Assembly (NCBI GenBank): GCA_027028505.1
Contig: JALVJE010000084.1
Coordinates: 1-37,632, forward strand
DNA from: Bacteroidales bacterium
Lineage (GTDB): Bacteria > Bacteroidota > Bacteroidia > Bacteroidales > VadinHA17
Direction of reading: 5' to 3'
DNA: 37,632 nt
Positions 1 to 36,120 of the stretch are shown one piece after another. The notes under the pieces are model-generated. The model did no database searches, was not told where the DNA came from, and saw nothing but the letters and a program-made list of their open reading frames with translations. The first letter of the stretch is position 1; the number at the start of each line of letters is the position of its first letter. Both the position numbers and the translations under genes were made by a program.

Positions 1-1173
1 CTCCACCTCCTCAGGTGTGGGAGCGCGTTGGGTGACGGTCTTCAGATCGCCGGCGTTCTCGGTTTTACTGTCGCGGTCCTGGAGCAGTACGCCGTTGAGG
101 GCCGTGCGCACCAGGCGGGGAGCGAAGTCCGTATTTTTCCGGATCAGGATGATCCTTTTCTTTTTTGTTTTGAGGATCTCCAGCGCCTCATCCGTATAGG
201 CGGGGGCCATGACCACCTCGAAAAAGAGCTTGTTCATCTCCGTGGCGGTAGCAGCGTCAATGGTGCGGTTGGTGGCGAGGATGCCTCCGAAAGCCGAGAC
301 GGGGTCGCCGGCCAGCGCATCTTTCCAGGCTTCTGCCACAGTGTTACGCAGGGCCGCCCCGCAGGCATTGTTGTGCTTGAAAACAGCAAAGGCCGTCTCT
401 TCGAATTCGGCGATAAGCCCTTCGGCAGCATCAATGTCGAGGAGGTTGTTGTAAGAGATCTCTTTGCCGTGGATCTGTTCGAACCAGTCGTCAAAACGGC
501 CGAAGAAGAAAGCCTCCTGGTGGGGGTTCTCACCATAGCGCAGAGAACGTCCTGCCGGGATGCTCAGGCGCAATTCGGGAAGATCCTCTTTCTCGTTGAA
601 CCAGTTGAAGATGGAGGTGTCGTAATGGGAGCTCACGGCAAAAGCTTCTGCAGCAAAACGCCTGCGTTCCTCCAGGGTGGTGGTACCGCCGTTCTTAAGG
701 ATGTCCAGCAGGGCAGCGTACTGTCCTTTGTGGGAGATGACCAGGACATCCCTGAAGTTCTTTCCTGCCGCCCGGATGAGGGATATCCCGCCGATGTCGA
801 TCTTCTCGATGATCTCCTCCTCCACGGCACCGCTGGCGACGGTCTCCTCAAAAGGATACAGGTCGACGACCACCAGGTCAAGGGCCGGGATCTCATAATG
901 CTGCATGTCGTGGATGTCCTCCTCGTGGTCGCGGCGTGCCAGAATGCCGCCGAAGACCTTGGGATGGAGCGTCTTGACACGTCCTCCCAGGATGGAGGGG
1001 TAAGAGGTGATATCTTCCACCGCTGTGACCTCCACGCCCAGGCCTGAGATGAATTTTTGTGTGCCGCCGGTGCTGTAAAGCGTGACGCCGAGAGCGGCCA
1101 GCTGCCGTACGATCTCGTCCAGACCTTCTTTGTGGTAGACGGAGATAAGTGCGCTTTTGATCTGTTTTGCCAT
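1..1173 (-). CDS. purH: PurH, bifunctional AICAR transformylase / IMP cyclohydrolase (C-terminus cut by window edge)
   Basis: This enzyme catalyses the last two steps of purine synthesis: formylation of AICAR with 10-formyl-THF and ring closure to IMP, in the cytoplasm. Reading leftwards from the ATG at 1173 gives 391 uninterrupted codons to the window edge. The family is about 505-510 residues, so the last fifth is missing. Residues 1-140 form the MGS-like cyclohydrolase domain (STGGT at 34-38, GGRVKTLHP at 63-71). The transformylase domain follows, with RYGENPHQ at 212-219 and the catalytic Lys-His pair at 266-267 in KHNNACG. The next gene is divergent, with 169 bp between them. I found no perfect Bacteroidetes promoter for purH in that gap. 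Assignment is secure. Confidence 0.96.
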   Translation of the reverse strand, partial: MAKQIKSALISVYHKEGLDEIVRQLAALGVTLYSTGGTQKFISGLGVEVTAVEDITSYPSILGGRVKTLHPKVFGGILARRDHEEDIHDMQHYEIPALDLVVVDLYPFEETVASGAVEEEIIEKIDIGGISLIRAAGKNFRDVLVISHKGQYAALLDILKNGGTTTLEERRRFAAEAFAVSSHYDTSIFNWFNEKEDLPELRLSIPAGRSLRYGENPHQEAFFFGRFDDWFEQIHGKEISYNNLLDIDAAEGLIAEFEETAFAVFKHNNACGAALRNTVAEAWKDALAGDPVSAFGGILATNRTIDAATATEMNKLFFEVVMAPAYTDEALEILKTKKKRIILIRKNTDFAPRLVRTALNGVLLQDRDSKTENAGDLKTVTQRAPTPEEVE

Positions 1174-2593: not shown

Positions 2594-2750
2594 AAGCTTG
2601 AAGGGCGATGCTTGAAGTTCGAAGGAAGGGCGAAGGACGAAAGTGGGAAAAGTATGAAAAGTGGAAAAAGTCTGAAAAGTCTGAAAAGTCTGAAAAGTGG
2701 GAAAAGTGGTAAGAGAGTGAAGAGTAAGCTATGAGCGGTGAGAAATGAGT
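2593..2750. repeat. GAA-phased short repeat tract, left part of island 1
   Basis: GAA recurs at 2593, 2600, 2614 and 2621 (GAT at 2607), a 7-bp step. After a 4-bp slip it appears at 2632 and 2639. From 2656 the unit lengthens to mostly 9 bp (GAAAAGTCT), with GAA at 2656, 2664, 2674, 2683, 2692 and 2701. The tract begins on the last base of the permease stop codon. I see no gene here. Confidence 0.8.
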
Positions 2751-2759
2751 AATGAGAAA

Positions 2760-2920
2760 GACCCCGGAGGGGTCAAAGATAGTAGCCGCAGTTACGCCTG
2801 CGGTTAATGGTAGCCTCCTAGTGGCCAACCCCGAAGGGGTTGAAGAAGGATACTGGAGCGTTAGCGGAAGTCCCGGCAGCGCCGTCGGCAAGCCTCTGGC
2901 GGCCGATGGTTTACCGGGGA
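2760..2920. repeat. Cluster of GC-rich hairpins in island 1
   Basis: Four inverted repeats follow one another. GACCCC/GGGGTC (2760-2765, 2769-2774) encloses GGA. CCGCAG/CTGCGG lies at 2786-2791 and 2798-2803. AACCCC/GGGGTT (2827-2832, 2836-2841) encloses GAA. A longer imperfect hairpin spans about 2870-2920, pairing CCGTCGGC (2882-2889) with GGCCGATGG (2900-2908). The first and third are nearly the same element. CCCC-GAA-GGGG elements resemble intergenic repeats common in Bacteroidota. No U-run follows any of them, so I do not call terminators. Confidence 0.75.
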
Positions 2921-2960
2921 ATGACGAACAATAAATCCTATATTCCATACAATCAACTCT

Positions 2961-3033
2961 GAACTCGGAACTCTGAACTCTGAACTGTGAACTGTGAACT
3001 ATGAACTGTGAACTCTGAACTATGAACTGTGAA
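2961..3033. repeat. GAACTNN heptad tract, right part of island 1
   Basis: GAA occurs at 2961, 2968, 2975, 2982, 2989, 2996, 3003, 3010, 3017, 3024 and 3031, eleven steps of exactly 7 bp. The unit is GAACTNN (GAACTCT, GAACTGT, GAACTAT). The first three bases, and nearly always CT after them, are constant, while positions 6-7 vary. The tract overlaps the 3' end of rsmA and contains its stop codon. Confidence 0.92.
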
Positions 3034-3787
3034 CCTTCACACACAGGCTGATAAACTCTTCCGGTGAGAGCTGTTCTGCTCGGCGGCCCAGGGTCTTGTC
3101 CTTTTTCATCTCTTCCGGCAACATCTCCTTCAGCGCATTGCGCAGGGTCTTGCGCCGCTGGTTGAAGGCTTTTTTCACCAGGGCGATATAGCTTTCCGGG
3201 GGGCAGGGCAGGCTTTCTCTTTCGTTATGTACCAGCCGGATGACGGCGGATTTGACTTTGGGTTGCGGGTAAAAGACCTGTTCCGGCACGGTGAAGAGGT
3301 AATTTACCCGGAAGAAAGTTTGCAGAAGTACGCTCAACAGTCCATAGGTTTTGTTTCCCGGCCTGGCGACCAGCCGGTCGGCTACCTCTTTCTGGACCAT
3401 GGCTACCACCTCGTTGACCGTATCGTGGTTTTCCAGGATCCGGAAGAAGATGGGACTGGTGATGTGATAAGGGAAATTACCGATAACAGCTATTTTCTCA
3501 TTCTCTCCGACGGGCCACATCATGGTAAGAAAATCTTCCGCCAGGATGCGTCCCTGCAGCTCCGGGAACCTCTGCTGCAGCCACTCCACCGAATCGCGGT
3601 CTATTTCCACCAGAAAAAGCCTTTCCCCGAACTTTTCCACCAGAAATTCCGTCAGGATCCCGCGGCCGGGGCCGATCTCCAGGATCCTGTCCACCCCTTC
3701 TCCCGGCAGCATGGAAGTGATCTTACGGGCAATGTTGCGGTCCTGTAAATAATTCTGGCTCAGCGATCTTTTAGGGCGATGGAGCAT
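3020..3787 (-). CDS. rsmA: RsmA (KsgA), 16S rRNA A1518/A1519 dimethyltransferase
   Basis: This enzyme dimethylates two adjacent adenines in helix 45 of 16S rRNA during late 30S assembly, using S-adenosylmethionine. The protein has 255 residues, within the usual range. The SAM-binding motif I is LEIGPGRG (36-43), the acidic loop is VEIDRD (60-65), and the catalytic motif IV is NFPY (104-107), a variant of NLPY. The basic C-terminal domain contains KKAFNQRRKTLRNAL. The ATG at 3787 fits the start of the conserved SLSQNYLQD segment. The last residues (VKVHSS) and the stop are encoded by the GAACTNN repeat tract, so the native end of the gene may have been overwritten or extended. The MacB-type permease gene is convergent. 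Confidence 0.96.
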   Translation of the reverse strand: MLHRPKRSLSQNYLQDRNIARKITSMLPGEGVDRILEIGPGRGILTEFLVEKFGERLFLVEIDRDSVEWLQQRFPELQGRILAEDFLTMMWPVGENEKIAVIGNFPYHITSPIFFRILENHDTVNEVVAMVQKEVADRLVARPGNKTYGLLSVLLQTFFRVNYLFTVPEQVFYPQPKVKSAVIRLVHNERESLPCPPESYIALVKKAFNQRRKTLRNALKEMLPEEMKKDKTLGRRAEQLSPEEFISLCVKVHSS

Positions 3788-8056: not shown

Positions 8057-8093
8057 CTACGTAGATAACTACGTAGTTAGCTACGTAGTTAGG
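8057..8093. repeat. Three tandem 12-bp repeats built on the palindrome CTACGTAG
   Basis: CTACGTAG occurs at 8057-8064, 8069-8076 and 8081-8088, exactly 12 bp apart. The spacers are ATAA, TTAG and TTAG. The middle copy is part of a 12-bp perfect palindrome, AACTACGTAGTT (8067-8078). Together with the inverted repeat at 8026-8048, this fills the gap between carA and the flavin reductase gene. An operator array or a slippage-prone repeat are both possible. Confidence 0.8.
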
Positions 8094-12084: not shown

Positions 12085-14511
12085 TTATTCTTCCTCGTCT
12101 TTCTGGATGCGCATGCCGTAGAACGACTTGTAAACGAAGGCCAGTCCGAAAACGAGCAGGATAACGCCTATGGGGATGGTCCAGTCGAAAGAACCGCTGG
12201 CCTGGGCGTTCATGCGCATGTGTACAGCGATCTCAACGGCCAGCAGGCCGAAGAGGGTGGAGAACTTGATGATGGGGTTCATGGCCACCGAGGAAGTATC
12301 CTTGTAAGGGTCGCCCACGGTGTCACCCACCACGGTCGCTTCGTGCAGAGGAGTTCCTTTTTCCTTGAGGTCCACCTCAACGATCTTCTTGGCGTTGTCC
12401 CAGGAGCCGCCGGCATTGGCCATGTAGATGGCCTGGAAGAGCCCGAAAACGGCCAGTGAGATCAGGTAGGAGACGAAGTAGTTGGGGTCGAAGAAAGCAA
12501 AGGCCAGCGTCAGGGAAAAGATGACGGCGAAGACGTTCCACATGCCGTTCTGGGCATAGCGGGTACAGATCTTCACCACCGCCTTGGAGTCTTCGATGCT
12601 CGACTCTTCTAGGTCGAGGTTGATATTCTTCTTGATGAAGGCGGTGGCACGGTAAGCCCCTGTGGTGACGGCCTGCAGGGAGGCACCGGTGAACCAGTAG
12701 ATGACAATACCTCCGGTGATGAATCCCAGGATCACCTGTGGGTCGAGCAGTTGCAGCTGCAGAAGGCCCATTTTTTTCAGCATGAGGATGATGGCAAAGA
12801 TCATGGTGGTAGCCCCGATGACCGCCGTGCCGATAAGTACCGGTTTGGCAGTGGCCTTGAAGGTGTTGCCGGCCGAGTCGTTGGACTCGAGGTAGTATTT
12901 ACCCATTTCAAAATCGGGCTTGAAACCGAAATCTTCCTCGATCTCTTTTTCGATATTGTCCAGTTTCTCGATACGGGACAGTTCAAATACCGACTGGGCA
13001 TTGTCGGTGACGGGGCCGAAGCTGTCGACAGCGATGGTGACAGGGCCCATGCCCAGGAATCCGAAGGCGACGAGGCCGAAGGCAAAGACCGTCGGGAAGA
13101 TCATGATGCCGTCGAGGCCGAGGGTGCTGACGAAATAGGCCAGGGCCATGAGGATGACGATGGCGATGCCTTCCCAGAACGCCGAGAAGTTACCGGCCAC
13201 CAGTCCGGAGAGGATGGTCAGGGAGGCGCCTCCTTCGCGTGAGGCGGTGACGATCTCTTTCACATGGCGGGAGTTGGGGGAGGTGAATACCTTCGTCAGC
13301 TCCGGGATGATGGCAGCAGCCAGGGTGCCTACGCTGATAATGGTGGAGAGCTTCCACCAGAGGCCGGTGAGGACGGTGCCGTTCTCAAGACGGATATCGC
13401 CGCCCAGGAGGAAATAGCTGACCAGGTAGGTGCTGAGGATGGAGACGAAAGAGGTGATCCAGATCAGGGAGGTCAGCGGCGCCTCGAAGTTATAGTCTTT
13501 GAGCTTTCCGTATTTGGCCTTGCCGATCATGTCGTTGATCCAGTAGGAAAGGAGAGAGGTGATGACCATCATGATACGCATGACGAAGATCCAGACGATG
13601 AGGTTGGCCTGGAAATCGGTGCCCACGACGGCCAGGACGATGAAAGAGATGAGGGCCACGCCGGTGACACCGTATGTCTCGAAGCCGTCGGCGGTGGGTC
13701 CCACGCTGTCGCCGGCATTGTCACCGGTACAGTCGGCGATGACGCCCGGGTTGCGGGGGTCATCTTCGGGAAGGTTGAAGACGATCTTCATCAGGTCGGC
13801 GCCGATGTCTGCGATCTTGGTGAAGATGCCGCCGGCCACACGCAGGGCGCTGGCACCCAGCGACTCACCGATGGCGAAGCCGACGAAGCAGGCGCCGGCG
13901 CTGTCACGCGGGATGAAGAGCAGGATGAATATCATCATGAACAGTTCGACGGTCACCAGCAGGACACCCACGCTCATCCCCGAGCGCAGGGGGATGGAGG
14001 TCACCTCCCAGGGATGGTTTTTCAGCGAGGCGAAGGAGGTACGGCTGTTGGCCAGGGTGTTGATACGTATGCCGAACCAGGCCACCCCGTAAGATCCGGA
14101 GATGCCGATGACCGTCCAGAGCAGGACCATCAGCACCTTGGGAAGGGGCATGTGGCTGAGAGCAAAGAAATAATAGAAAATAGCTACGGCCACGATGCCG
14201 AGCAGGATCAGCAGAAAACGCCCCTGCTGGAGGAGGTAGGTCTTACAGGTCTCATAGATGATGCCGGAGATGTGTAGCATGGACTTGTGAGCCGGGATCT
14301 TTTTGATCTTGGCATAGGTCCAGATACCGAAGATCCATCCGAAGATCACGAAGATCAACCCGTAAAAAAGAAGATCCCAGCCATCCACGCCTCCCAGCAT
14401 GGGGAAGACGCTCTCCCGCATATCGGGAACGTTGAGATCTGCTTCACTGGCCAGTGATAACACAGGCAACATCAGAAATGTCAGAGAACCCAGAAACAGC
14501 TTTTTTTTCAT
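12085..14511 (-). CDS. hppA: HppA, membrane-bound proton-translocating pyrophosphatase, probably potassium-independent
   Basis: An 808-residue integral membrane protein that couples hydrolysis of pyrophosphate to ion export. It has about 16 transmembrane segments and an extra signal-like hydrophobic N-terminus. The substrate loop near residues 240-280 contains EDDPRNPGVIAD, GDNAGDSVGPTAD and GFETYG. The second acidic motif is near the C-terminus (NAGGSWDNAKK, HEATVVGDTVGDPYKDTS). In membrane pyrophosphatases the residue after GNTx tells the potassium class: Ala in K+-dependent and Lys in K+-independent enzymes. Here GNTF is followed by Lys552, so K+ independence is inferred. GPTADGF replaces the usual GMAADLF, placing it in a divergent branch. 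A good promoter lies upstream. Confidence 0.95.
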   Translation of the reverse strand: MKKKLFLGSLTFLMLPVLSLASEADLNVPDMRESVFPMLGGVDGWDLLFYGLIFVIFGWIFGIWTYAKIKKIPAHKSMLHISGIIYETCKTYLLQQGRFLLILLGIVAVAIFYYFFALSHMPLPKVLMVLLWTVIGISGSYGVAWFGIRINTLANSRTSFASLKNHPWEVTSIPLRSGMSVGVLLVTVELFMMIFILLFIPRDSAGACFVGFAIGESLGASALRVAGGIFTKIADIGADLMKIVFNLPEDDPRNPGVIADCTGDNAGDSVGPTADGFETYGVTGVALISFIVLAVVGTDFQANLIVWIFVMRIMMVITSLLSYWINDMIGKAKYGKLKDYNFEAPLTSLIWITSFVSILSTYLVSYFLLGGDIRLENGTVLTGLWWKLSTIISVGTLAAAIIPELTKVFTSPNSRHVKEIVTASREGGASLTILSGLVAGNFSAFWEGIAIVILMALAYFVSTLGLDGIMIFPTVFAFGLVAFGFLGMGPVTIAVDSFGPVTDNAQSVFELSRIEKLDNIEKEIEEDFGFKPDFEMGKYYLESNDSAGNTFKATAKPVLIGTAVIGATTMIFAIILMLKKMGLLQLQLLDPQVILGFITGGIVIYWFTGASLQAVTTGAYRATAFIKKNINLDLEESSIEDSKAVVKICTRYAQNGMWNVFAVIFSLTLAFAFFDPNYFVSYLISLAVFGLFQAIYMANAGGSWDNAKKIVEVDLKEKGTPLHEATVVGDTVGDPYKDTSSVAMNPIIKFSTLFGLLAVEIAVHMRMNAQASGSFDWTIPIGVILLVFGLAFVYKSFYGMRIQKDEEE

Positions 14512-14807: not shown

Positions 14808-16115
14808 ATGAAAGATCACAGAGGCATGAGGGCAGGAAGTGGAATGAGGTATGGTATTGTTGTTATGATCATAACCTTATTTTCCACATGGGGGGTGTAT
14901 GCCGGCGGAGAAGTACAGGTACAGGACACCTCCGGATATTTTATAGTGAAGGGCAAGATCGTGGATTCAGAAAAAGGCAGGCCGGTGGTCTTTGCCTCGG
15001 TTTTTATCATGGGCACCCATATAGGTACCGTCTCCAATTCGGAGGGTAAGTTCCTGTTAAAGGTGCCGGAGAGGTACAAGGGGCACAAGATCGGTTTCAG
15101 CAGTATGGGGTATAAGACGATGACCCTGTCGGGGAAAGATCTGGTGAAAGGGAAAGACAATGTGATCCGTCTGGTGCCGGATGTTATTCCGCTGGCACCG
15201 GTGGTGGTGGAACATTTGGATCCCTATGCGCTGTTGAGAGAATACCGAAGAAGGATCAAAGAGAATTACGGCAAACAGGCGGCCATGATGACGGCATTTT
15301 ACCGGGAGTCGGTGAAGAAAAGGAATAAATACCTTTCTGTGGGTGAGGCTGTCCTGGACATCTACAAGGCCCCTTATACCGGCATTGAATCGGATCGGGT
15401 GCGTATATACAAAGGCCGCAAAGCCGAATATGTTACGAAAGAGGATACTTTGATGATGAAGCTGCAGGGCGGGCCTGTGACGATGGTGATGCTGGATGTG
15501 GTGAAAAATCCGGGGGATCTCCTGAGCCCTATGGCATTGATGTATTATGACCTTGCTTTTGGAGGGGAGGTGATGATCGATGGGCGGCGCACTTACATGA
15601 TCCGCTTTGACCAGAAAGATTCGGTGACCGTCCCTCTGTTCAAAGGGACCATCTATCTGGATCAAAAGACCTACGCCCTGGCCGGCATGGAGTTCAGCAT
15701 CAGTCCGAAGAAACTGGATGAGGCCGCCAAATACATGATCATCCGTAAGCCTGCGGGGCTTAAAGTGGATGTCCTGAGTGCTTCTTATCTGGTGAAATAC
15801 AGGTATCAGGGAGGCCGGTGGGTGTTAAATTATGTGCGTATCGAGAACCGGTTCCGCTGTAAATGGGATAAAAAACTGTTCCGTTCCAATTACACCATCA
15901 CCTCGGAGGCTGCGATCACCGATGTGGATTACAACAATGTGACCAAGCCCCGTTTCAGGGAGACAGCGCGGGCAGGAGATATCTTTATTGAGGATATCAA
16001 AGCTTTCCAGGACCAGGAGTTCTGGGGCAGGAACAATGTGATTCGGCCCGAAGAGTCGATCCAGGCAGCCATCCGGAAGATCCGGAGGAAGCTGAAACGG
16101 AGAGGGAAAGAGTGA
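14808..16115 (+). CDS. Exported protein with carboxypeptidase-regulatory-like domain (CarboxypepD_reg-like)
   Basis: I chose the ATG at 14808 (435 residues), preceded by AAAGAG; a TTG 11 codons upstream is also in frame. A hydrophobic signal peptide (about 14-30, ending VYAGG) is followed by a beta-sandwich of the CarboxypepD_reg-like type (about 45-130: VKGKIVDSEKGRPVVFASV, GTVSNSEGKFLL, MGYKTMTL). The rest (about 140-420) is a beta-rich domain seen behind such modules in Bacteroidota envelope proteins, including DYNNVTKPRFRE near the end. There is no TonB box or beta-barrel of TonB-receptor length. It ends in a basic tail (KIRRKLKRRGK). Its stop directly abuts a GAA heptad tract. Function unknown, probably cell envelope. 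Confidence 0.8.
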   Translation: MKDHRGMRAGSGMRYGIVVMIITLFSTWGVYAGGEVQVQDTSGYFIVKGKIVDSEKGRPVVFASVFIMGTHIGTVSNSEGKFLLKVPERYKGHKIGFSSMGYKTMTLSGKDLVKGKDNVIRLVPDVIPLAPVVVEHLDPYALLREYRRRIKENYGKQAAMMTAFYRESVKKRNKYLSVGEAVLDIYKAPYTGIESDRVRIYKGRKAEYVTKEDTLMMKLQGGPVTMVMLDVVKNPGDLLSPMALMYYDLAFGGEVMIDGRRTYMIRFDQKDSVTVPLFKGTIYLDQKTYALAGMEFSISPKKLDEAAKYMIIRKPAGLKVDVLSASYLVKYRYQGGRWVLNYVRIENRFRCKWDKKLFRSNYTITSEAAITDVDYNNVTKPRFRETARAGDIFIEDIKAFQDQEFWGRNNVIRPEESIQAAIRKIRRKLKRRGKE

Positions 16116-16116
16116 G

Positions 16117-16185
16117 GAAGGATGAAGCTTGAAGCTCGAAGCTCGAAGGATGAACTACGAACTACGAACTATGAACTACGAATCC
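16117..16185. repeat. GAANNNN heptad tract, island 2
   Basis: GAA occurs at 16117, 16124, 16131, 16138, 16145, 16152, 16159, 16166, 16173 and 16180, ten steps of exactly 7 bp, beginning 2 nt after the upstream stop codon. The unit drifts from GAAGCTT/GAAGCTC to GAACTAC/GAACTAT without losing phase. Only the GAA is invariant. Part of the 336-bp gap before glnN. Confidence 0.92.
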
Positions 16186-16270
16186 CGAAAAACAGCAAAT
16201 CTTTGATTTGCGTAGTTTTTCGAGGATCCTCGCAGTTCCAGCGGGATCAAGATCCCGGGAACTGCGGGAC
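16182..16270. repeat. Twin bulged hairpins of island 2
   Basis: Hairpin 1 pairs CGAAAAAC-A-GCAAATC (16186-16201) with its partner at 16205-16222, which has three bases where the left arm has one. Hairpin 2 pairs CGCAGTTCC-AGC-GGGATC (16231-16248) with 16251-16266, where one base faces three. Each has a 2-3 nt apex and the same kind of off-centre 2-nt bulge. They lie back to back, and GAACTA resumes at 16274 on the far side, so the pair looks inserted into the heptad tract. No U-run is present. Confidence 0.75.
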
Positions 16271-29988: not shown

Positions 29989-30537
29989 ATGACGACCATG
30001 GAAGAGCGGATACAAAGTATGAGAGAAAGGTTCCGGAAGATGGAACTTCCCGGGATGAAGCCCTGGTATCTGCGCCTCGACCGTTTCCTGCAGATGACCG
30101 AGAGCCTGCTGTTTGAACAGGGATGCCGGGAGTGTCAGACGCTGGCGCAGGAGGCTTTTGAATTGTCGGGAACAGAGGTGCATGACAAAAGAGAGGCTGA
30201 AAAATTTGAGGAGAGGTATATCTCGCTCTTCCGGAGGATCTCGGACCATCTGAAAGAGGTGCACGGCTACCGCCTCCCCAACCACTATATCTCGCGGTAT
30301 ACCCTGTTGTTCATGATCGTAGGAACCGTGGCGGGCTTACTGGTCGTATACCTGGGACGTGCCGTGGATGCCGGATCCTGGAGCTACCAGCTGGGAGGCA
30401 TGCTGGGCTTTGTCACAGGGCTGGTAGCCGGGAGGATCGCCGGCAACCGGAAAGACAAACAGATGAGCCGGGACGGGAAAGTGCTGTTTGGAAGGATGAA
30501 TTCCGCCTCCGCCGAGGCTTCGGCGGACGAAGGATGA
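29989..30537 (+). CDS. Small two-helix membrane protein of unknown function with a repeat-derived C-terminus
   Basis: A 182-residue protein I do not recognise. The N-terminal 100 residues are predicted helical and charged (MRERFRKMEL, KREAEKFEERYISLFRRI). Two transmembrane helices follow at about 104-122 and 131-151, with a short loop and a basic cytoplasmic stretch (NRKDKQM). The last dozen residues, NSASAEASADEG, are encoded by a GC-rich hairpin and the first heptads of repeat island 3, and the stop codon lies in that tract. The tail is therefore probably not ancestral. An ATG at 29998 is an alternative start. It sits alone between the pnp terminator and island 3. Confidence 0.7.
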   Translation: MTTMEERIQSMRERFRKMELPGMKPWYLRLDRFLQMTESLLFEQGCRECQTLAQEAFELSGTEVHDKREAEKFEERYISLFRRISDHLKEVHGYRLPNHYISRYTLLFMIVGTVAGLLVVYLGRAVDAGSWSYQLGGMLGFVTGLVAGRIAGNRKDKQMSRDGKVLFGRMNSASAEASADEG

Positions 30538-30655
30538 TCGACGAAGGATGATCGACGAACGATGATCGATGAACGACGATCCTTCGGTACGTCTTCGGCT
30601 ACTCAGGAACCAGGGAGTTCTGCCTCTGCAGGGGCTTTGAATGATGAATGATGAA
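30509..30655. repeat. Repeat island 3: hairpin plus GAA/GAT heptad tract
   Basis: CCGCCGA (30509-30515) pairs with TCGGCGG (30520-30526). A heptad tract then runs with GAA at 30529, 30543, 30557 and 30571 alternating with GAT at 30536, 30550, 30564 and 30578, eight exact 7-bp steps and so a 14-bp higher period. A second short tract has GAA at 30639, 30646 and 30653 (unit GAATGAT). Between them is a stretch without a recognisable element except CCTTCGG-type and CTGCAGG-type self-complementary bits. There is no gene between 30538 and 30679. Confidence 0.85.
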
Positions 30656-35359: not shown

Positions 35360-35490
35360 GCATTCGGAAGCAAAGAATTAGCTGAACTAATGCGTTTAGC
35401 CGGGATTTTGGGTTTATCCCAGATTGCGCATTAGGAAGCTAAAAAATAGCTGAACTAATGCGTTAGCTGGGGTTAACCCCGATCTAGGAG
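35360..35490. repeat. Two tandem 68-bp units, each with an AT-rich and a GC-rich hairpin
   Basis: Units begin at 35360 and 35428. Their first 34 bases agree at 30 positions. Each opens with a GCATT...AATGC hairpin (unit 2: GCATTAG at 35428-35434, complement CTAATGC). A second inverted repeat follows: GGGAT/ATCCC (35402-35406, 35416-35420) in unit 1 and the palindrome GGGGTTAACCCC (35469-35480) in unit 2. Only two copies are present, with no CRISPR-like constant repeat. Confidence 0.75.
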
Positions 35491-35494
35491 TTCA

Positions 35495-35573
35495 CGGTTT
35501 TGGTGTAAGCCAAAACCGATGAAATCCTTAATCGATCAGCAATGAAAAGCGCTTGCGATTTTCTATTGCTGAT
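35495..35573. repeat. Two further hairpins downstream of the trmH-like gene
   Basis: CGGTTTTGG (35495-35503) pairs with CCAAAACCG (35510-35518). ATCAGCAAT (35535-35543) pairs with ATTGCTGAT (35565-35573), with GAAAA/TTTTC inside. No U-run follows on either strand. The second lies 8 bp from the methyltransferase stop and may protect that mRNA end. Confidence 0.65.
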
Positions 35574-35580
35574 TCTGGGT

Positions 35581-36120
35581 TTATTTCATCATTGTGAAAA
35601 AGTGCCAGAGGACGATGCCCGCACTGACGGAGATGTTGAAGGAGTGTTTGGTACCGAACTGCGGGATCTCGATGCAGAGATCGCTCATGTTGACGATCTC
35701 CTGGCTCACTCCTTTGATCTCATGGCCAAAGACCAGCGCATAGTGCCTGTCTTTTTCCGGCCGGAACCGGTCGAGAGAGATACTGCCTTCGGCCTGTTCG
35801 ACGGAAATGATGATATGATCCTTTTCCCTGAGGTCCAGGATCGCATCCCGGGTATGTTCGAAATACTGCCAGGGCACCGACTCGGTAGCTCCCAAAGCCG
35901 TTTTCCGGATATCCCGGTGGGGAGGGGTGGCCGTGATACCACACAGGATCACCTCTTCAACCAGGAAACCGTCGGCAGTACGGAAGACAGAACCGATGTT
36001 GTTGAGACTGCGGACATTGTCCAGCACGACCGTTACCGGGAACTTCTTGGCGGTGCGGTATTCTTCGGCGCTTTTCCTGCCCAGTTCTTCATTCAGTAAT
36101 TTTCTGAAACGGTCGCTCAT
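35581..36120 (-). CDS. SpoU/TrmH-family RNA 2'-O-methyltransferase
   Basis: A 179-residue SPOUT-fold enzyme that methylates a ribose 2'-hydroxyl in tRNA or rRNA with SAM. I chose the ATG at 36120; an in-frame TTG at 36141 would add seven residues. The three family motifs are present: NNIGSVFRTADGF (motif 1, with the catalytic Arg), ALVFGHEIKGVS (motif 2) and IPQFGTKHSFNISVSAGI (motif 3, where SFNISVSAG replaces the usual SLNVSVA). There is no extra N-terminal substrate-binding domain beyond a short helix, as in TrmH rather than RlmB. The target nucleotide is not deducible. Confidence 0.92.
   Translation of the reverse strand: MSDRFRKLLNEELGRKSAEEYRTAKKFPVTVVLDNVRSLNNIGSVFRTADGFLVEEVILCGITATPPHRDIRKTALGATESVPWQYFEHTRDAILDLREKDHIIISVEQAEGSISLDRFRPEKDRHYALVFGHEIKGVSQEIVNMSDLCIEIPQFGTKHSFNISVSAGIVLWHFFTMMK

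Follow-up and report, generated by a model that had tools for sequence, protein, structure and literature searches.

The window is a contig of 37,632 nucleotides from the genome of an uncultured Bacteroidales bacterium (G000; 3.38 Mb in 275 contigs). A degenerate heptamer array runs into the 3' end of rsmA, and further short tandem repeats lie elsewhere in the window. The features referred to below are as follows.
2594..2760, plus strand: further purine-rich repeats in the intergenic region of the rsmA array (TRF and sequence)
2955..3034, GAAC strand on plus: degenerate heptamer array, unit GAACTNT, 11 units (TRF, 11.4 copies)
3020..3034, minus strand: overlap of the array and rsmA, codons GTT CAC AGT TCA and stop TAG
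3020..3787, minus strand: rsmA, 16S rRNA dimethyladenosine methyltransferase (TIGR00755, E 6.8e-75)
16114..16189, plus strand: second heptamer array, with units from GAAGCTC to GAACTAC; it overlaps the TGA stop with which a gene ends at 16115
30526..30581, plus strand: GACGAACGATGATC repeats, with TRF periods of 14 and 7, that extend over the gene end at 30537

RsmA is a good member of its family, and its Pfam domain (PF00398, residues 4–247 of 255) stops ahead of the array-coded residues. The array reads AGTTCAN in the rsmA sense (minus strand), so that the gene ends GTT CAC AGT TCA TAG TTCAGAG TTCACAG, continuing likewise. A preliminary description had the tract supply the last residues of RsmA and its TAG stop. 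This is right for V252-H-S-S255 and for the TAG (3020–3022, minus strand); the V-K before them comes from elsewhere. The GAA phase was found as described, with GAA at 2961 and then at each 7 bp to 3031, 11 times with zero slips. In Markov shuffles of the window (60 each of orders 1, 2 and 3) the longest period-7 GAA runs were 4, 3 and 3, so that 11 steps stand against at most 4, and across all trinucleotides and all periods from 4 to 30 the longest phased run was 5 (20 order-2 shuffles). Positions 6 and 7 of the unit had been said to vary; position 6 is indeed free (C, G or A), but position 7 is other than T in the first unit only. The final listed unit, GAACCTT, already extends into rsmA codons. 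The array showed no RNA structure (z −1.1 and +1.4).

The second array of the window contains another 11-step GAA phase (16117–16193), and the sister species described below (G001) has an array of other length at that place. The GACGAACGATGATC repeats at 30526–30581 were under the threshold of the lag-7 scan used below. Within 2594–2760, GAAGCTT-like units lie directly behind the TAG stop of a MacB-like permease gene, a 9-bp array of AAAGTGGGA occupies 2640–2724 and TGAGAAA-like units occupy 2732–2760. Other dispersed sequences were recorded in the window. Intergenic positions 2758–2900 hold three small hairpin-forming inverted repeats (GACCCCGGAGGGGTC and two more), parts of the stretch being dispersed in G001, and at 8057–8092 a 12-bp unit, CTACGTAGTTAG, stands in three copies and has matches elsewhere in G001 on both strands. 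An intergenic element at 35413–35586 has nine near-full-length and further partial matches in G001; its part 35413–35560 folds strongly (single-strand DNA fold z −9.0). A dispersed element of ~125 bp at the contig end (37508–37632) occurs at more than 20 G001 sites, often beside the 35413–35586 element, and may be the cause of the contig ending there. No Rfam families or tRNAs were found in the window.

The rsmA array is one of many, and such a tract is not special to rsmA. The G000 genome was searched with GAACTNT three times plus GAAC, with up to 3 mismatches and with overlapping units counted several times; 352 forward and 480 reverse matches were obtained (832), compared with 12 and 6 (18) for the reversed-pattern control. 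A scan that presupposed no motif and looked for sequence repeating itself after 7 bp (lag 7) was run on two separate G000 sets, one picked for the repeat and one by contig number. It gave 72 arrays in the first (323 kb; the window and 20 stretches) and 13 in the second (120 kb), with 0 in the single order-3 shuffled copy made of each set. Lag 8 gave 16 and 5 arrays in these sets, lag 12 gave 11 and 6, and the remaining lags, multiples of 7 aside, gave no more than 9 and 4. Where 322.8 kb were sampled irrespective of arrays, 0.73% of the bases belonged to arrays, of which there were 40. Several heptamer families stand side by side (TGAACYN, GAAGCTY, GATGAWC, TGGAACY, AGTGTGG, AAGGCAN, GAGATGA and others), and beside them stand 8-mers, for example GATGAAGC, and 9-mers, for example AAAGTGGGA.

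Coding sequences were called with our own codon-score finder, which gives firm stops and less firm starts and misses genes truncated at contig ends; the first coding sequence that it placed in the window (28–1047, plus strand) is probably wrong, and purH presumably lies on the strand opposite to it. Only 372 of 4810 array bases fell in predicted coding sequence, in sampled stretches that are 87.1% coding. Arrays favour gene 3' ends over divergent gaps: 35 of 426 3' ends lay inside a lag-7 array compared with 8 of 426 5' starts (p = 2.7e-5), and among gaps of at least 60 bp an array was present in 19 of 40 convergent ones, compared with 45 of 155 tandem ones and 4 of 50 divergent ones (convergent versus divergent, p = 2.3e-5). 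In the 322.8 kb picked without regard to arrays, the corresponding values were 12 of 214 3' ends and 5 of 214 starts (p = 0.14), and the gaps gave a result in the same direction (convergent 7/21, tandem 20/78, divergent 2/23; p = 0.064); the excess at 3' ends does not reach significance in this set by itself. In a first sample of 296 gene ends, 30 had their stop in an array, compared with 13.1 when arrays were placed uniformly in the same gaps (22 in the highest of 2000 runs).

Orientation was counted for arrays of three or more units (48 in G000). GAAC arrays no more than 30 bp from a 3' end were GTTC-sense in 15 cases and GAAC-sense in 4, and those no more than 30 bp from a start were GAAC-sense in 9 and GTTC-sense in 0; the G001 counts were 3 and 1 at 3' ends and, at starts, 1 GAAC-sense and 0 GTTC-sense. 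Replication strand was rejected as the cause of the orientation, as arrays change strand within about 2 kb in one stretch (L068; by eye). The same counts bear on the idea that the array is kept as a three-frame stop insulator, guaranteeing termination behind genes. TGAACTN units do offer TGA in all three frames per 21 bp, and the 30 of 296 gene ends would fit; however, the GAACTNT arrays at 3' ends are mostly GTTC-sense (15 against 4), where stops need the A variant, and a pure GAAGCTC array, also found at stops, contains no stop codon on either strand. We consider an insulator very improbable.

The register of the stops is strict. Where a stop met a GTTC-sense run, defined as three exact GTTCNNN units within 30 bp of the stop and drawn mostly from repeat-picked stretches, it was the array's own TAG in the register TA-GTTC in 13 of 14 cases; the remaining stop was TGA. 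TAG made up 16 of 35 stops in arrays compared with 81 of 426 overall, an excess that arises because stretches were chosen for the repeat; in the unselected set TAG accounted for 4 of 12 stops in arrays (p = 0.24). Outside arrays TTC hardly ever stands behind TAG (1 of 62 TAG stops), and arrays were therefore not simply seeded by existing TAGTTC. On the start side, where cases are less certain than stops, ATG or GTG lay in the array register in five of eight cases and ATG lay shortly behind the array in three. MiaA starts at an array GTG; the family model sets in at residue 4 of this reading frame, in which a TGA stands six bases upstream of the GTG.

Because the array is read in one frame, unrelated proteins end in a common V-H-[S/G]-S tail: RsmA (...KVHSS), ProB (...TVHSS; TIGR01027), a metallo-beta-lactamase-fold protein (...VVHSS; PF00753) and an Ldh_2 dehydrogenase (...EVHGS; PF02615). 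Pyruvate kinase, Lon, KdsB and MsrA reach the array TAG at once. Random insertion followed by selection would mostly keep the old stop and leave the array at any register, and the register seen in 13 of 14 cases differs from this. Such borders could be described as the work of a polar composite element of ordered heptamer modules set exactly at gene borders, with the genes' own stops and starts replaced by array TAG and ATG or GTG and the ends of unrelated proteins rewritten as V-H-S-S tails; we hold this description to be unlikely.

Some modules do keep one order on one strand within 350 bp: GAAGCTY stood before GAACTNT in 5 of 5 pairs, the 9-mer before the 8-mer in 6 of 7 (one more pair being on opposite strands), GATGAWC before GAATGTC in 4 of 5 and AAGGCAN before GAATGTC in 9 of 11 over both G000 sets (6 of 7, with two more on opposite strands, and 3 of 4). 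Other pairs were in no fixed order: AAGGCAN and GATGAWC came out 1 to 1, and GAAGCTY and the 9-mer 1 to 2, each of these combinations having 2 further cases on opposite strands. Still others had their members mainly on different strands (AAGGCAN with TGGAACY, 4 of 4; TGGAACY with GAATGTC, 4 of 4). These pair counts are small, come from motifs picked after looking and cover pairs with at least four cases, of which G001 has none. A search for a GAATGTC/GAACACC family (15 matches) mixed chance gene matches with real copies and was left out of the counts.

An origin by mobile insertion would have an element of fixed polarity and composite build enter gene borders via TAG/ATG microhomology, with later slippage. 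The stop register and the ordered pairs would follow from it, and within the genus the family is frequent in G000 and G001 only: the genome pattern gave 317 matches in G001 and 39, 9, 3, 1 and 0 in the five other congeners, the 9 matches of G005 falling short of the 25 in its control. Of 33 other relatives searched, from outside the genus, 16 gave matches, in most cases 1 to 19; a distant genome, G035, gave 48 compared with 20 for its control. At pyk an array is present in G000 and G001 only, with different lengths; the protein end is kept in both and, bar a residue or two, in five congeners without the array, and two of these five (G002 and G003) stop with TAG at the same site, which speaks for insertion. 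Against an inserted element stand the unordered and opposite-strand pairs and also the plasmid records, which gave no match at E 1e-5 (low-complexity filtering may hide copies); three viral-contig stretches carry a stricter pattern. The proB end carries different repeats in three species of one genus, namely the GTTC array in G000, 8-bp TAATGGAA repeats in G003, which start at the stop codon (L245), and AAGGCAG units in G004, each giving tail and stop; G002 has no array behind the gene. Three different proB repeat units favour birth on the spot, and mobile insertion appears to us improbable.

The sister species allowed individual arrays to be compared. RsmA of G001 is 96% identical, and its rsmA array has the same place and flanks with 5 units compared with 11 in G000, and is 42 bp shorter; three of the 5 units are AGTTCTC instead of AGTTCAN. 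The preliminary description had suggested that the C-terminal residues might be lineage-specific, and alignment of orthologues bears this out: the VHSS tail is present in G000 and G001 and absent in G002–G006, the proteins of these congeners ending in other residues. In G002, G003, G004 and G006 RsmA is of about the same length and has no array; the G005 locus stops a few bases past the stop codon. The wider comparison covered the window and four more regions (L062, L068, L072 and L079) with 26 lag-7 arrays in all, of which 22 were spanned in G001; one array in L068 and three in L072 were unspanned. The gap lengths of G000 and G001 differed by a multiple of 7 in 7 of the 22 spanned gaps, about 3 being expected by chance, and some of the 22 spans share a gap. 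Other insertions lie in the remaining gaps, which is why the number is only 7; many are palindromic, and palindromic inserts interrupt heptamer arrays in orthologous gaps. The L068 array at 13008 differs by 49 bp between the species, and the simple pair at L072 4819 differs by 6. Of the spanned GAAC-type arrays, 7 of 8 are present in both species (by eye), and at L079 1588 G001 has other repeats.

The variation within the unit was analysed in 35 G000 arrays found by lag alone and phased by consensus. This set replaced earlier column entropies, which were biased because GAAC had been required. The mean non-majority shares of the columns G-A-A-C-T/C-N-T were 0.154, 0.053, 0.080, 0.080, 0.222, 0.324 and 0.218. 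The contrast between columns was beyond all 5000 controls with randomly rotated columns; that of nine G001 arrays was reached by 9 of 5000. The commonest single differences between neighbour units were A/G in column 6 (35) and C/T in column 5 (19). It had been proposed that GAA and the phase are kept while the rest drifts, and beyond the rsmA array as well GAAC is kept and variation falls in columns 5–7. The further step, that spacing is what is maintained, received no support in the tests run, and some arrays slip phase where two repeat families adjoin (by eye; for example L075 15884–16057).

Neighbouring units are also alike. Adjacent units were identical in a proportion of 0.430 in G000, compared with 0.290 ± 0.021 when units were shuffled inside each array (maximum over 300 shuffles, 0.350); at lag 2 the value was 0.373 compared with a highest shuffle of 0.378, and lags 3 and 4 were at about the shuffled level. 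In G001 the lag 1 value was 0.342 compared with 0.199. This likeness of neighbours fits slippage. Together with the rsmA arrays, which differ by exactly six units, it leaves the earlier argument that slippage alone could not account for such a tract without support. Loops of 7 nt would be expected to evade MutS and mismatch repair. Loss of mismatch repair as the cause was rejected, mutS1 being intact and above the cut-off in G000 and G001 as it is in array-poor congeners (23 of 24 genomes over the cut-off).

The same column pattern could mean that the array is a functional repeat, to which a nucleic-acid-binding protein would bind with a period of 7, with core and spacing under selection; MacGregor (PMC4679880) proposed such a reading for TAACTGA repeats. 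Column-specific conservation, strict orientation at gene borders (15 against 4 at 3' ends, 9 against 0 at starts) and the presence of 7 of 8 GAAC-type arrays in both species are what it would predict. Yet four congeners lack the rsmA array and have a gene end of similar length, five lack the pyk array and have the same protein end, ordinary, unrelated genes adjoin the arrays (rsmA, proB, pyk, lon, kdsB and msrA), copy number differs freely and RNA structure is absent. On balance we doubt this function.

Intergenic heptanucleotide tandem repeats are already known, and what is unusual here is the tidy fit to gene borders. Among the titles listed in full-text literature searches, with subscription papers mostly outside their scope, none dealt with GAACTNT repeats or with repeats of this kind that supply protein tails. 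Short tandemly repeated repetitive (STRR) sequences are known from cyanobacteria. The arrays agree with intergenic heptanucleotide simple-sequence repeats (SSRs) in that 7-bp tandem units are above chance and lie mainly outside coding sequence, and in that copy number differs by whole units between relatives (rsmA, 42 bp; L068 13008, 49 bp). Long SSRs with 7-nt units are abundant in prokaryotes (Mrazek et al. 2007, as reported in PMC4679880 and PMC4692102); as summarized there they too are tandem heptamers far over chance and mainly intergenic, with slippage and a 7-nt polymerase contact as the proposed cause, whereas here several degenerate families adjoin and the stop-codon register is strict.

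Three described families come close. TAACTGA repeats occur in Beggiatoaceae, Cyanobacteria and some Bacteroidetes and lie over upstream stop codons in 13 ORFs (MacGregor 2015, PMC4679880); they are likewise intergenic heptamer arrays, and most of the indels that separate two close Cyanothece strains come in 7-nt steps. They stand mostly before starts, many just before start codons, and the unit is treated as exact, whereas ours lie mostly at 3' ends and the unit is a degenerate GAACTNT, so that the window array is not a TAACTGA repeat. The GGGNATC and GGGGAYT heptamers of Xanthomonas and Nostoc (Rehm et al. 2015, PMC4692102) share a constant core with variable columns, genome-wide dispersal, sites that in two species mostly lie between the same genes but at altered length, and position near or over stop codons with few between divergent genes. 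They differ in their G-tracts and quadruplex formation; GGG is absent within 2955–3034, and the array does not belong with these quadruplex repeats. The TDNGATT and NNTGAGT heptanucleotide motifs of the Nostoc tRNA-Leu intron (PMC4476775) also have 7-nt units, free positions and copy-number change, but lie inside one intron stem, whereas GAACTNT arrays lie between genes.

The tract is one array of a dispersed family of degenerate heptanucleotide simple-sequence repeats, probably driven by slippage and persisting at harmless gene-end sites. The family itself, the six-unit difference between the sister species at rsmA, the bias among columns, the preference for 3' ends and the stop register are observed; slippage as the motor is the probable part. 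Replication slippage would add or remove whole 7-bp units; the GAAC core would stay nearly constant while the following positions change, mostly by transitions. Arrays would last where indels are harmless, adjoining and just into gene 3' ends, and indels there would be tolerated while the array offers a stop. An array reaching a start would have to supply ATG or GTG, or stay just short of it. When an array touches a coding sequence, its own CATAG (TAG) would serve as the stop and its CTATG or CTGTG (ATG or GTG) as the start, and gene borders would therefore lock to one unit register. Slippage with tolerated gene-end indels would account for the whole-unit difference at rsmA, the likeness of neighbours, the scarcity in divergent gaps and the codon register. 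Slippage alone leaves unexplained the occurrence of one heptamer at many unrelated loci of G000 and G001, and the column bias with retention of GAAC. Arrays may have been copied between loci by recombination or template switching, and we take their persistence to be neutral.

In one genome pair, short tandem repeats supply stop and start codons and a common tail to unrelated proteins. The sister species and the many loci offer a test bed for why 7-nt units are common in long bacterial microsatellites and why part of the unit is kept.
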